Part shown: in pieces, positions 38,684 through 44,868 of the stretch | Layout: every line of letters starts with the position of its first letter | Numbering within the stretch: position 1 is the stretch's first letter | NCBI RefSeq assembly: GCF_028885415.1 | Contig: NZ_CP118527.1 | Coordinates: forward strand, 8,990,001 to 9,054,000 | Origin: Streptomyces coeruleorubidus | GTDB taxonomy: Bacteria; Actinomycetota; Actinomycetes; Streptomycetales; Streptomycetaceae | DNA: 64,000 bases | Reading direction: 5' to 3' | Translations under genes and position numbers: made by a program | Notes under the pieces: generated by a model | What the model was told of the DNA's origin: nothing | Seen by the model: only the letters and a program-made list of their open reading frames with translations | Database searches by the model: none

Positions 38684-41506
38684 TCACGCCATCTGGCGCC
38701 GCACCAGCTCGTGCAGCCGGCCGCTCGTGTCGGCGAGCAGCTGGGCGGGCGGGCCCTGCTGGACGACCTTGCCGTCCTCCATCACCACGACCCGGTCGGC
38801 GTCCAGCACGGTCGACAGCCGGTGGGCGATGACGATCCGGGTGGCGTTGAGGGCCTTGGTGCTCTCGATGACCGTGCGCTGGGTCTCGTTGTCGAGGGCG
38901 CTGGTCGCCTCGTCGAAGAAGAGGATGCGCGGCCGGCGGATCAGCGCCTGGGCGATCATCAGCCGCTGGCGCTGGCCGCCGGAGACGGCGCCGCTGCCCG
39001 AGACGATGGTGTGCAGGCCCATCGGCATCCGCTTGATGTCCTCGGCGAGACCGGCCATCTCGGCCGCCGCCATCGCCTCCTCCGGCGTGTACGGCTCCGT
39101 GCCGCAGATGACGTCCAGGATCGAACCGGTGAACGGCTGCGCGTGCTGGAGCACCACACCGCACTGGCGGCGCACCGCCGACTGGTCGAGCGCGGCCAGG
39201 TCCTGACCGTCGTAGAGGACGCTGCCCGACACCGGACGGTCGAAGCCGATCAGCAGGCGCAGCAGCGTCGACTTGCCGCAGCCGCTCGGGCCGACGATCG
39301 CGACGAACTCGCCCGGCCGCACCTCGAACGACACGTCGTCCAGGACCAGCGGGCCGTCGTCCGAGTAGCGGAAGGACAGCCGCCGCGCCTCGATCGCCCC
39401 GGACAGCGGACCCGGACGCGTGCTCGCCGTGCGCACCTCCGGTGTCGCGTCCAGCACCGGCTTGATCTCCTCGTACATCGGCAGCGCGGCCACGGCCGAG
39501 ACGAAGGCGTTCGTCAGCTGGGTCACCGAGGTCAGCACCATCGTCACCGAGGTGTTGAAGGTGAGGAACGCGGCCGCCGACATCGAGCCCCGGGCCGGAC
39601 CCGCCAGCAGCATGAACATCAGCAGCGTGCACAGCGGCAGGTACACCGCGCCCAGCACCGATGTGAGGTTCTTGATGCGGCCGACCTTCTGCTGGAGCTC
39701 CCGGCTGCGCGCGAACTGGGACGCCCACGCGGCGTACGCGTAGTTCTCGGCGGCGGCCACCCGCAGCTTGGGCAGACCGCGCAGCGTCTGGAAGGCCTGG
39801 TTGTTCAGCTTGTTGGAGAGCACGACCAGCCGCCGCTGCCAGCGCACCTGCCACAGCCCGAGCCCCAGGAACACGGCCGCGACGACCACGAGCATGCCGA
39901 TCGCGGCCATCGCCATCGGCACGCTGAACCACAGCAGCAGCCCCAGGTTCATCGCCCCGACCGTCACCGACTGGGCGACCGTCGGCCCGACTCCCGCCAG
40001 CAGTCTGCGGATCGCGCTGATGCCCATGGCCGCGCTGGCCAGTTCGCCGGTGGAGCGCTCGGTGAAGAACCTCGTCGGCAGCCTGAGCAGCCGGTCCCAC
40101 ACGGCCGGCTGGAGCGTGGCCTCGATGCGGCCCTCCAGCCGCAGGATGGTCAGGTTCTGCATCAGCATGAAGGCCGCCGCCACCACGCTGCTCAGCATCA
40201 CCGCCAGACACACCTGCACGATCAGGTCCGTCTGCGCCTTCGGCACGAACTCGCCGAGCACCTTGCCGGTCGCGATGGGCACGAGGGCGCCGATCGCCAC
40301 CGTGACCAGTCCGCTGAGCAGCAGACCGGTCAGGTCGCGGCGCGTGCCCCGCATGCAGAACCGCAGCAGCCTGAGCGGGCTGAGCCGCCGCTCGGGCAGC
40401 GGGCGGTAGAACATCACCGCGCGCGGCTCGAACTCGTCGGCGTTGGCCTTCTCGATCGGCGTCTCACGTCCGGTCGACGGATGGACGGCGACATATCCGC
40501 CGCGCCGCCACAGCAGCGCCACCGGCGCGCCGGACAGGGCCCGGTGGCCGACCAGCGGCCCGACGTCGTCCCGCCACCAGCGGCCGTCCAGGCGAACGGA
40601 CCGGGTACGGACCCGGGAGGCCAGGGCCACCTGCTCGACCGGGTCGAGGCGGTCGCCGCCGGTGCCCTTCTGGGTGGGCTCGGTGAGGCTGATCCCGGCC
40701 GCCTGCGCGACGAGTTTGCACGCCGCGTAGGTGGCGTCGGCGTCGGCCGCGGTGGTCCGCTTCGACGACCGCTTGCCGATGGAGGCCAGCAGCGTCCGGT
40801 CGGCCTGGGCGCGAACCGCCTCACCGGCCTTGATGCCCTCGGCCGTGCGCGACTCGTGGGTGCGCTCCAGCTGCTCGATCCAGCGGTCCAGCGTGGTCAG
40901 CAGCCGGTACTGCTGGTCGACCATGGTCTGCCACAGCCCCGGGTCGATCAGCAGGTCGGCCGCGGCCTCCGCGCCGTACAGCGAGCCGTACTGGACGCTG
41001 CCGGGCGGCACCTGCATCCAGAACACGTCGTCGTCCGTGGGCGCGGCGGCCCGTTCGGTCGCCATCGGGGCCTGGAAGAGGATGGACAGGCTTCGGCCGA
41101 CCCCCAGGGCGAGGGCGTACTCCAGCGGGCTCGTCGTCGGCGGCACGTACTGCGGGTTGCCGTACTCGTCGTACGACCAGGTCGCGGTGCTGGCGGGCTG
41201 GTACAGCTCGCGCAGGCCGATGCGGTGCACCACGCAGTCCCGCAGCGGGCGGGCCACCAGGGTGTGCTGGGGCCCAGCCACCGGTCCGAGCACCAGCGAG
41301 CCCGCCTCCAGCCGGCCCAGGTGGTGCCAGTGGCCCTGCTGGCCGGCGTCCACCGCGAACAGGTCGACGGCCCCCGACGCGATCAGCCACAGCACCTGTG
41401 GGCCCTCCAGGTCGAGGCGGTTGAACCCGGCGCAGTCGATGCGCGAGCCCATCTGCCCGAACGCGTTGAGGACGAGGTCACCCTCGTGTCCCTGAACGGC
41501 CGTCAT
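38684..41506 (-). CDS. NHLM-type peptide exporter: permease/ATPase without peptidase domain
   Basis: A 940-residue protein. The first 350 residues hold a cyclic-nucleotide-binding-like fold (LEGPQVLWLIASGAVDLFAV, LGRLEAGSLVLGPVAG) plus a family-specific region. Six membrane helices (about 400-680) and an ABC ATPase (about 700-940) follow: GPSGCGKS (Walker A), VSGGQRQRL signature, ILFFDEATSALD (Walker B). This is the second ABC subunit found in NHLM bacteriocin export systems, alongside a C39-containing one. Its ATG follows the C39 gene's stop by one base. Last gene of the four-gene operon beginning with the precursor. Confidence 0.92.
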   Translation of the reverse strand: MTAVQGHEGDLVLNAFGQMGSRIDCAGFNRLDLEGPQVLWLIASGAVDLFAVDAGQQGHWHHLGRLEAGSLVLGPVAGPQHTLVARPLRDCVVHRIGLRELYQPASTATWSYDEYGNPQYVPPTTSPLEYALALGVGRSLSILFQAPMATERAAAPTDDDVFWMQVPPGSVQYGSLYGAEAAADLLIDPGLWQTMVDQQYRLLTTLDRWIEQLERTHESRTAEGIKAGEAVRAQADRTLLASIGKRSSKRTTAADADATYAACKLVAQAAGISLTEPTQKGTGGDRLDPVEQVALASRVRTRSVRLDGRWWRDDVGPLVGHRALSGAPVALLWRRGGYVAVHPSTGRETPIEKANADEFEPRAVMFYRPLPERRLSPLRLLRFCMRGTRRDLTGLLLSGLVTVAIGALVPIATGKVLGEFVPKAQTDLIVQVCLAVMLSSVVAAAFMLMQNLTILRLEGRIEATLQPAVWDRLLRLPTRFFTERSTGELASAAMGISAIRRLLAGVGPTVAQSVTVGAMNLGLLLWFSVPMAMAAIGMLVVVAAVFLGLGLWQVRWQRRLVVLSNKLNNQAFQTLRGLPKLRVAAAENYAYAAWASQFARSRELQQKVGRIKNLTSVLGAVYLPLCTLLMFMLLAGPARGSMSAAAFLTFNTSVTMVLTSVTQLTNAFVSAVAALPMYEEIKPVLDATPEVRTASTRPGPLSGAIEARRLSFRYSDDGPLVLDDVSFEVRPGEFVAIVGPSGCGKSTLLRLLIGFDRPVSGSVLYDGQDLAALDQSAVRRQCGVVLQHAQPFTGSILDVICGTEPYTPEEAMAAAEMAGLAEDIKRMPMGLHTIVSGSGAVSGGQRQRLMIAQALIRRPRILFFDEATSALDNETQRTVIESTKALNATRIVIAHRLSTVLDADRVVVMEDGKVVQQGPPAQLLADTSGRLHELVRRQMA

Positions 41507-41507
41507 C

Positions 41508-44630: not shown

Positions 44631-44652
44631 AGTCAACGGCAATGGGGCCAGA

Positions 44653-44868
44653 TCAGAGACCGGCGACCAGGTTGGTGACCGGGGCCGTGTTCAGGCCGGT
44701 GGCGCCCTCGACGGTGCCGACGGCCGTGTTGACCAGGCCGGAAACCGGGGCGATGCCGTCGACCGTGTCGGTGACGGTGTTCACGGCGTTCACGGACAGG
44801 CCGCCGGAGACGGCGTCGAGCTCGGCGTCGGCGATCTCGACGGTCTCAACCTGGGGGGTGGAGTTCAT
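44653..44868 (-). CDS. Double-glycine leader peptide precursor (putative exported RiPP/bacteriocin-like peptide)
   Basis: A 71-residue peptide. Leader residues 1-23 (MNSTPQVETVEIADAELDAV then SGG) contain the ELDxVxGG box recognised by C39 peptidases. The predicted 48-residue core is rich in Val, Thr, Gly, Asn and Ala, and contains no Cys, His, Trp, Phe, Lys or Arg. It is built of related segments: VNTVTDTVDGIAPVSG and VNTAVGTVEGATG, then LNTAPVTNLVAGL. Without Cys it cannot form lanthionine. Ribosome-binding site GGAAGGAAG is strong. First gene of the operon with HlyD and two ABC exporters. Similar peptides are sometimes auto-labelled type A2 lantipeptides, which the core does not support. 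Confidence 0.85.
   Translation of the reverse strand: MNSTPQVETVEIADAELDAVSGGLSVNAVNTVTDTVDGIAPVSGLVNTAVGTVEGATGLNTAPVTNLVAGL

Follow-up and report, generated by a model that had tools for sequence, protein, structure and literature searches.

What does a Streptomyces do with a complete peptide-export operon that has a precursor gene and no gene for an enzyme to modify the precursor? The question is raised by an operon on the minus strand of Streptomyces coeruleorubidus, at positions 38,684 to 44,868 of the window, i.e., the whole 64,000-nucleotide stretch analyzed here (contig NZ_CP118527.1, positions 8,990,001 to 9,054,000). The four genes encode, in this order, a small double-glycine precursor, an HlyD-type adaptor and two ABC components (ABC1 and ABC2) of an NHLM-type exporter; no enzyme for ribosomally synthesized and post-translationally modified peptides (RiPPs) is adjacent. 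Our answer is that the locus is probably the hub of a dispersed Streptomyces peptide-export regulon, in which one NHLM-type exporter serves several peptides, none of them a lanthionine or azole product. This reading starts from what the sequences establish, namely the operon, the conservation of its leader and core, scattered paralogues, a shared upstream element, the co-occurrence of exporter and peptide, and the absence of LanC-like and YcaO matches. The features of the locus are:

45026..45031 (-): GATTGG, a -35-like box, from the sequence and from comparison of upstream regions.
44997..45008 (-): GTGCTTTGATCC box of the shared element, located 128 bases ahead of the start codon of the precursor.
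44869..44996 (-): putative 5' untranslated region, in which a GGGGGCCGCTCCCCCC inverted repeat was spotted by eye; the stretch has similar counterparts in close relatives and in the L042 class of scattered (orphan) genes.
44653-44868 (-): precursor, 71 amino acids (aa), cysteine-free, double-glycine type.
44800..44868 (-): precursor leader, residues 1-23, double-glycine, ending in ELDAVSGG; ratio of nonsynonymous to synonymous polymorphism (pN/pS) 0.30 in 21 same-clade genes.
44653..44799 (-): precursor core of 48 residues and stop codon; pN/pS 0.54.
44537..44652 (-): 116-base gap between the precursor and HlyD genes, with a strong predicted hairpin (fold of -54.6 kcal/mol, without a shuffle control).
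43730..44536 (-): HlyD-type adaptor, TTG start; slightly below the TIGR03794 cut-off, HlyD_3.
41508..43733 (-): ABC1, C39 peptidase/permease/ATPase; TIGR03796, PF03412.
38684..41506 (-): ABC2, permease/ATPase without a peptidase; TIGR03797.
37595..38665 (-): Ppx/GppA phosphatase (Pfam) adjoining the operon; its position matches SCO0757 (exopolyphosphatase; PMC6629963 Table 2).

The GGGGGCCGCTCCCCCC hairpin (44869-44930) recurs in close relatives, and the predicted hairpin in the 116-base gap is possibly an attenuator between the precursor and the exporter genes. The phosphatase gene is a synteny marker and lies outside the mechanism.

An earlier note, made from the letters of the window, had described a 71-residue precursor with an ELDAVSGG leader, an HlyD adaptor, a C39 exporter with intact Cys, His and Asp and a second ABC subunit, all overlapping or closely spaced, and this description holds. 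ABC1 scores 1029.9 bits against the TIGR03796 cut-off of 853.3 and ABC2 904.3 bits against the TIGR03797 cut-off of 709.4 (both NCBIfam), which places them in NHLM-type export, while the HlyD protein, at 152 bits, falls just below the TIGR03794 cut-off of 156.2 and its gene adjoins ABC1 as expected. The Peptidase_C39 domain of ABC1 is matched at E 9.8e-36 (Pfam), motifs with Cys42, His115 and Asp135, which we take to be the catalytic residues, are present, and both ABC proteins have Walker A, signature and Walker B motifs. The ABC1 and HlyD genes overlap by 4 bases, and ABC2 begins 1 base past the end of ABC1. The cyclic-nucleotide-binding-like N-terminus proposed for ABC2 is not supported: such a domain gave no Pfam match at E<=0.1, and an AlphaFold2 prediction for residues 1-280 is uninformative (predicted local distance difference test score, pLDDT, of 39).

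The earlier note did not foresee that the operon is common and already reported, nor that it is accompanied by scattered peptides with the same leader and promoter-like element. Three such peptides are encoded elsewhere in the same genome, at 1.566, 5.758 and 7.400 Mb. Their cores (46, 52 and 51 residues) are unlike the operon core, the one at 7.400 Mb has a single Cys, and their 19 neighbors have ordinary Pfam domains or none. In a survey of 150 genomes of the genus, the peptide profile gave 170 matches; among the 150 matches listed, 94 lie within 6 kb of an exporter and 56 beyond, four of which (in genomes G080, G002, G149 and G118) resemble operon copies split by contig ends. Recurrent orphan classes can be recognized by eye (...SPHA...SASL, MAFTPQIQTA..., ...GGMAGG...AC..., ...VLGVAGLGSAATLSV and ...HAEAG...). 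The orphans keep open frames (65-79 aa), the leader residues and, in most cases, the element described below. Shared neighbors occur in groups of 4-7 among 38 orphan loci, which implies that the orphans hold their place between species. At one locus (L165; G144:C1:144000-163000), the exporter genes are preceded by two adjacent leader peptides, so second peptides are not always scattered ones. The orphan at L044 (G000:C1:5749000-5768500) has TadE/type II secretion-like genes on one side and a polymorphic toxin gene of RHS/WXG100 type on the other, and some of these neighbors recur in six orphan loci.

Upstream of the operon and the orphan peptides alike is a promoter-like element of the form GATTGG-N16/17-GTGCTTTGATCC. 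Its 11-base core, GTGCTTTGATC, has only four sites in the strain's genome of 9.41 Mb; three of them are upstream of leader-sharing peptides, the fourth is antisense inside an apparent coding region, and the element of the fourth peptide has one mismatch. Among the upstream regions compared, 39 of the 43 from operons and 13 of the 18 from orphans have the GTGCTTTGATCC box with at most one mismatch. A GATTGG-like hexamer (at least four of six letters, 16-17 bases upstream of the GTGCTTTGATCC match) was found in 42/43 (L050 being the exception) and 15/18, compared with 4.8% of 20000 random positions at the same spacing; this stricter test was used instead of a lenient one (best of seven spacings), which has a background of 17%. 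In 38 orphan loci, including the 18, the box was present with at most one mismatch in 27 and with at most two in 35 (26/37 and 34/37 when L135, which is a copy of the operon at the end of a contig, is omitted). The corresponding figure for control small open reading frames (ORFs) is 28/1500 at one mismatch or fewer, which is an upper bound since some of them overlap true sites. We know of no Streptomyces promoter that the spacing and letters of this element fit.

In the 150 genomes, the exact motif has 152 sites in the 109 exporter-bearing genomes and 18 in the 41 exporter-less ones, and a reversed-pattern control has 9 and 1, respectively. The reversed pattern contains CTAG, which is rare in such genomes, and so understates the background; the 18 exporter-less sites are the better guide. 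Among the 150 sites listed of the 170, 84 lie 42-142 bases upstream of a listed peptide and 66 do not. At 20 of these 66 that were inspected, taken from the 50 in exporter-bearing genomes, no leader peptide was found downstream, and many of the sites lie inside apparent coding frames.

A stretch about 25 bases ahead of GATTGG (window 44869-45060) also looks shared by eye, being CAAGTTGCC-like in operon copies and TCAACTGCC-like in several orphans, and it is possibly an activator site. Loci L115, L123 and L125, from three genomes, have GTGCTTTGATCcggccatggagacc in common, with the GATTGG box at the right distance absent; at L115, an isopenicillin-synthase-like frame (by eye) begins 235 bases after GTGCTTTGATCcggccatggagacc.

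The exporter and the peptide also go together across genomes. ABC1 is the sole NHLM ABC1 above the cut-off in its own genome, and each of the 109 genomes in which the exporter scores above the cut-off has one exporter. Leader-sharing peptides are present in 108 of the 150 genomes. Both are found in 106, the exporter only in 3, the peptide only in 2 and neither in 39 (Fisher p 5.6e-30, shared ancestry ignored), and all 51 genomes with two or more peptides have the exporter. Most of the discordant genomes have a visible reason: in G119 the contig begins at the exporter, G027 and G037 have different exporters (ABC1 55% and 48% identical), and in G118 the peptide, whose frame looks disturbed, is followed by HlyD and then the contig end. 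For G001, an assembly that is 79% complete, no direct reason was found. The different exporter of G037 (L150; G037:C1:379000-398900) has a SagB-type peptide dehydrogenase next to it, and its ABC2 is followed by a 117-aa ORF, with no NCBIfam match, that may be the precursor of that system; G037 has neither a leader peptide nor an exact motif. Matches were found in 284 of 391 genomes of the order, in 4 of 10 genera, all four of the same family, and in 11 of 396 genomes across the phylum, where the own genus alone of 236 genera had them. The system was seen only in Streptomycetaceae in these surveys, the family being judged from homologue names.

The operon itself is well conserved. The four genes are matched together in 41 of 42 operon loci, the other (L083) ending within the operon, and in all 17 of a further set, with L165 and L166 cut or partial; these 42 and 17 fetched loci, the window excluded, are the 59 operon loci referred to below. 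A search with the precursor sequence returned 583 proteins at E<=0.01, the best 120 of which are 83-100% identical over 93-100% of the query, and a profile search (17 rows) returned 1181 at E<=1e-4. The mean pN/pS values given above, from the window gene and L062-L081, imply that leader and core are both constrained, the leader more so. The window core has no Cys, no aromatic residue and no Lys, Arg or His, and contains two VNTxxxTV(D/E)G segments. The 59 operon cores have 42-62 residues and a net charge of -5 to 0 (median -2); none has Cys or Trp, four have an aromatic residue, and seven have Lys or Arg. Their composition is 21 percent Val, 19 Gly, 13 Thr, 12 Ala and 12 Leu, and GxxxG is present in 59/59, with 47 expected on shuffling.

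No modifying enzyme was recognized alongside this conserved core. The Pfam scan of the window (29 proteins, of 48 called frames and a few that the caller missed) named no RiPP enzyme, as had been said. Called proteins from the surroundings of the 59 operon loci, at most 20 kb per stretch, were clustered, and no gene family beyond the exporter and the peptide is common to these loci. The clusters contain ABC proteins from 57 loci, peptides from 45 and HlyD proteins from 34 (the gene caller misses some, and tblastn finds peptide and HlyD in 59/59). Next come SpoIIE, in 23 loci, and an S1 protease, in 22, both chiefly from relatives close to the window, and then a transporter-like protein, in 11. 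In the whole genome of the strain, neither the LanC-like cyclase domain (PF05147) nor YcaO (PF02624) was matched at E<=1e-5, and the peptides are not placed among those with azol(in)es (thiazole/oxazole-modified microcins, TOMMs). Lanthionine or azole modification in trans is therefore very unlikely, the genome-wide search having covered these two families and not radical SAM or ATP-grasp enzymes. The homologue search that the earlier note proposed thus shows a Cys-free core kept beyond the leader and only exporter and peptide families recurring, and its statement that the core cannot be a lanthipeptide is upheld. Of its two options, an unmodified peptide or one modified in trans, the second becomes very unlikely in its lanthionine and azole forms; overall, its interpretation is partly supported.

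The lanthipeptide and TOMM readings were rejected on the Cys content and the absent LanC-like and YcaO matches. Many of the homologues among the matches listed (the best 120 of 583 and the best 120 of 1181) carry the name 'type A2 lantipeptide', which is misleading for these proteins and, with neither domain in the genome, does not fit. The precursor matches the type-A lantibiotic profile PF04604 at E 0.027 with 14.8 bits, below the cut-off of 21.7, and over residues 10-34 only. One paper (PMC13047742) adopted the database name of a homologue at face value and took the peptide as an antimicrobial lantipeptide. The precursor, whose leader has 23 aa, also gave no match at E<=0.1 to the NCBIfam precursor models of NHLP/N11P (TIGR03793/TIGR03798).

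We take the operon to be the orthologue of S. coelicolor SCO0753-SCO0756, and hence not new, because the gene order, the peptide class, the lack of Cys and the following exopolyphosphatase agree. The sequence compared was that of a homologue labelled S. violaceoruber, 86% identical to the window precursor, and not SCO0753 itself. In S. coelicolor, SCO0753 is the most over-expressed gene in a strain with activated kinase Sco5282 relative to the null mutant (log2 6.3); SCO0754-0756 are likewise raised (log2 4.25-4.4), and the exopolyphosphatase gene SCO0757 is next (PMC6629963). The operon is nearly silent in the null mutant, the activated-Sco5282 strain grows dispersed, and the authors, who describe Sco0753 as being without cysteines, suggested a change of the hyphal surface (PMC6629963). 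SCO0753 is also up in a delta-aor1 strain (PMC5733086), and SCO0756 is among the changed entries in PMC5882110 and PMC6414726.

How would the system work? The operon would make a short double-glycine precursor together with its own exporter, the C39 domain of ABC1 would cut after Gly-Gly, and ABC1, ABC2 and HlyD would release a 48-residue hydrophobic, acidic, Cys-free core that undergoes neither lanthionine nor azole modification. Cleavage and export are established for the C39 exporter family, and we predict from the exporter families that each of the peptides is handled in this way. The scattered genes, three of them in this genome, would supply peptides with the same leader and different cores. 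Given the element GATTGG-N16/17-GTGCTTTGATCC ahead of most of them, they would be expected to be expressed together with the operon peptide and to leave through the same single exporter. The weakest step is the proposed function on the hyphal surface or within the matrix, which is suggested by composition, the context of the published phenotype and analogy with the EbfG/PteB system discussed below. In its fullest form, a possibility that we hold tentatively, the regulon would extend across the genus, and a varying set of unmodified promoter-tagged peptides from scattered loci would co-assemble outside the hypha as a mixed coat or matrix that is controlled by Sco5282/Sco5283 and affects clumping and dispersal.

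Several observations weigh against a dispersed regulon of this kind. Among the listed peptides, an exact copy of the element precedes only 58 of the 94 that are linked to an operon and only 26 of the remaining 56, and the 66 listed sites without a listed peptide, together with the 18 in exporter-less genomes, imply that the 11-mer by itself lacks specificity. No element can be recognized in L050, L049 and L101 have three mismatches, L139 and L141 have a poor element, and a weaker form, GTGCTTACATCC or near it, is found in the orphan classes L052, L056, L132, L134 and L138. Five of the 38 orphan cores have one Cys. The Fisher p of the co-occurrence disregards phylogeny. The AlphaFold2 model of the precursor has no confident fold (pLDDT 54), a value that neither favors nor rules out self-assembly. 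Finally, no orphan peptide was seen in the covered tables of PMC6629963, where Table 2 names the operon genes.

The rival explanations overlap with ours, as they dispute the function more than the layout, and their probabilities need not total one. We consider it improbable that the peptide is a RiPP whose in-trans modification is due to an enzyme of neither the LanC nor the YcaO family (radical SAM, ATP-grasp, P450, 2-oxoglutarate or haem-oxygenase-like). This rival could appeal to the fact that the exporter families were defined jointly with modified-peptide precursors (PMC2887384), to a Haem_oxygenas_2 enzyme and a methyltransferase encoded near the operon, and to two more distant enzymes encoded in the window, a P450 at about 33 kb and a PhyH dioxygenase at about 28 kb. 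However, no enzyme family is common to the 59 operon loci, and for the Haem_oxygenas_2 enzyme and the methyltransferase, full matches are confined to relatives close to the window. The missing LanC-like and YcaO matches count against it as well, within the limits of that search noted above, and NHLP/N11P members are present in species without identified modifying enzymes (PMC2887384). Class II-like bacteriocins, i.e., unmodified and perhaps multi-component antimicrobials, would be compatible with the same hub-and-spoke arrangement and give it another function. Such peptides are usually cationic; the operon cores are acidic, 52 of the 59 have no Lys or Arg, the core is conserved between species and not diversified, and no immunity-type gene runs through the operon loci. 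Although the double-glycine leader, the C39 exporter, the GxxxG excess and the multi-locus export by pneumococcal ComAB/BlpAB (PMC7595303) are what this explanation would expect, we judge it unlikely too.

That the scattered copies are decaying, functionless duplicates and the operon alone matters is quite unlikely. Their presence does differ between genomes, and 4 of the 150 listed peptide matches span an in-frame TGA, although at two of these loci (in G116 and G004) a 69- or 72-aa peptide is intact; the open frames, leader residues and element retained by most orphans, and the place that groups of them keep between species, speak for maintenance instead. Least probable, in our opinion, are secreted signal peptides (pheromones). 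Cores of 48 residues are long for a signal peptide, no receptor or kinase family recurs across the loci, and the weak likeness of the leader region to the pheromone VP1 model (E 0.013) amounts to 15.7 bits, far below the cut-off of 85.

Other genes near the operon have patterns of their own. A role for the neighboring Haem_oxygenas_2, HemK-like methyltransferase, S1 protease and SpoIIE genes was rejected, as they are kept beside the operon in close relatives only. The gene at 45518-46924, divergent from the operon in the close clade, encodes a secreted protease of the alpha-lytic type whose C-terminus is a long Gly-Ala-Glu tail of low complexity. A subtilisin-inhibitor gene (34473-34916) and a CDGSH/methyltransferase/haem-oxygenase-like group (35072-36947) are beside the operon, with parts of it retained in close relatives.

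If a dispersed export regulon is the right reading, a mis-named 'lantipeptide' that is present in 108 of 150 genomes of the genus becomes a testable secretion regulon, with candidate extra substrates for the exporter and a promoter-like element. It also offers an entry to the question of what the Sco5282/Sco5283 system secretes when hyphae stop clumping.

Among known systems, the nearest is SCO0753-SCO0756, which has the same Cys-free peptide, HlyD homologue, two ABC components and adjoining exopolyphosphatase (PMC6629963). SCO0753 is given there as 77 aa, versus 71 here, and 77-aa versions with an upstream start occur among the homologues. That paper treats one peptide and its exporter, and the parts of it covered do not mention scattered peptides or a shared element. 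Pneumococcal ComAB/BlpAB resembles the present system in that a single exporter serves peptides of several loci, but most of its peptides are pheromones and bacteriocins that come with receptors or immunity genes (PMC7595303). In Synechococcus, several small GG-motif proteins, EbfG1-4, are exported by the C39 transporter PteB; EbfG1-3 are reported to form amyloids, and the set serves biofilm formation (PMC4997328, PMC9981879). The EbfG genes, however, form one operon and are cyanobacterial, and the likeness is one of description and not of sequence comparison.

SapB (RamS/AmfS) is presumably similar in being a small secreted surface peptide of Streptomyces; we take it to be lantibiotic-like with its own synthetase, whereas the peptides here are Cys-free and no LanC-like domain is present. 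SapB is named in PMC6629963. The NHLP/N11P precursors share with our system the three exporter families, the co-occurrence of leader and exporter and precursors that may lie far from the export genes, and some of their species have no identified modifying enzymes (PMC2887384). Their leaders are long and nitrile hydratase- or Nif11-like (PMC2887384), whereas the leader here has 23 aa and belongs to another family, and a promoter-like element links the genes. Searches of the open-licence literature found no published report of the scattered peptides or the element, and as far as the listings show, the dispersed, promoter-linked peptide set is unreported. The enzyme-less state is the normal state of this operon, and for genome mining it follows that an NHLM-type exporter need not imply a RiPP enzyme, as was noted for some species in PMC2887384.

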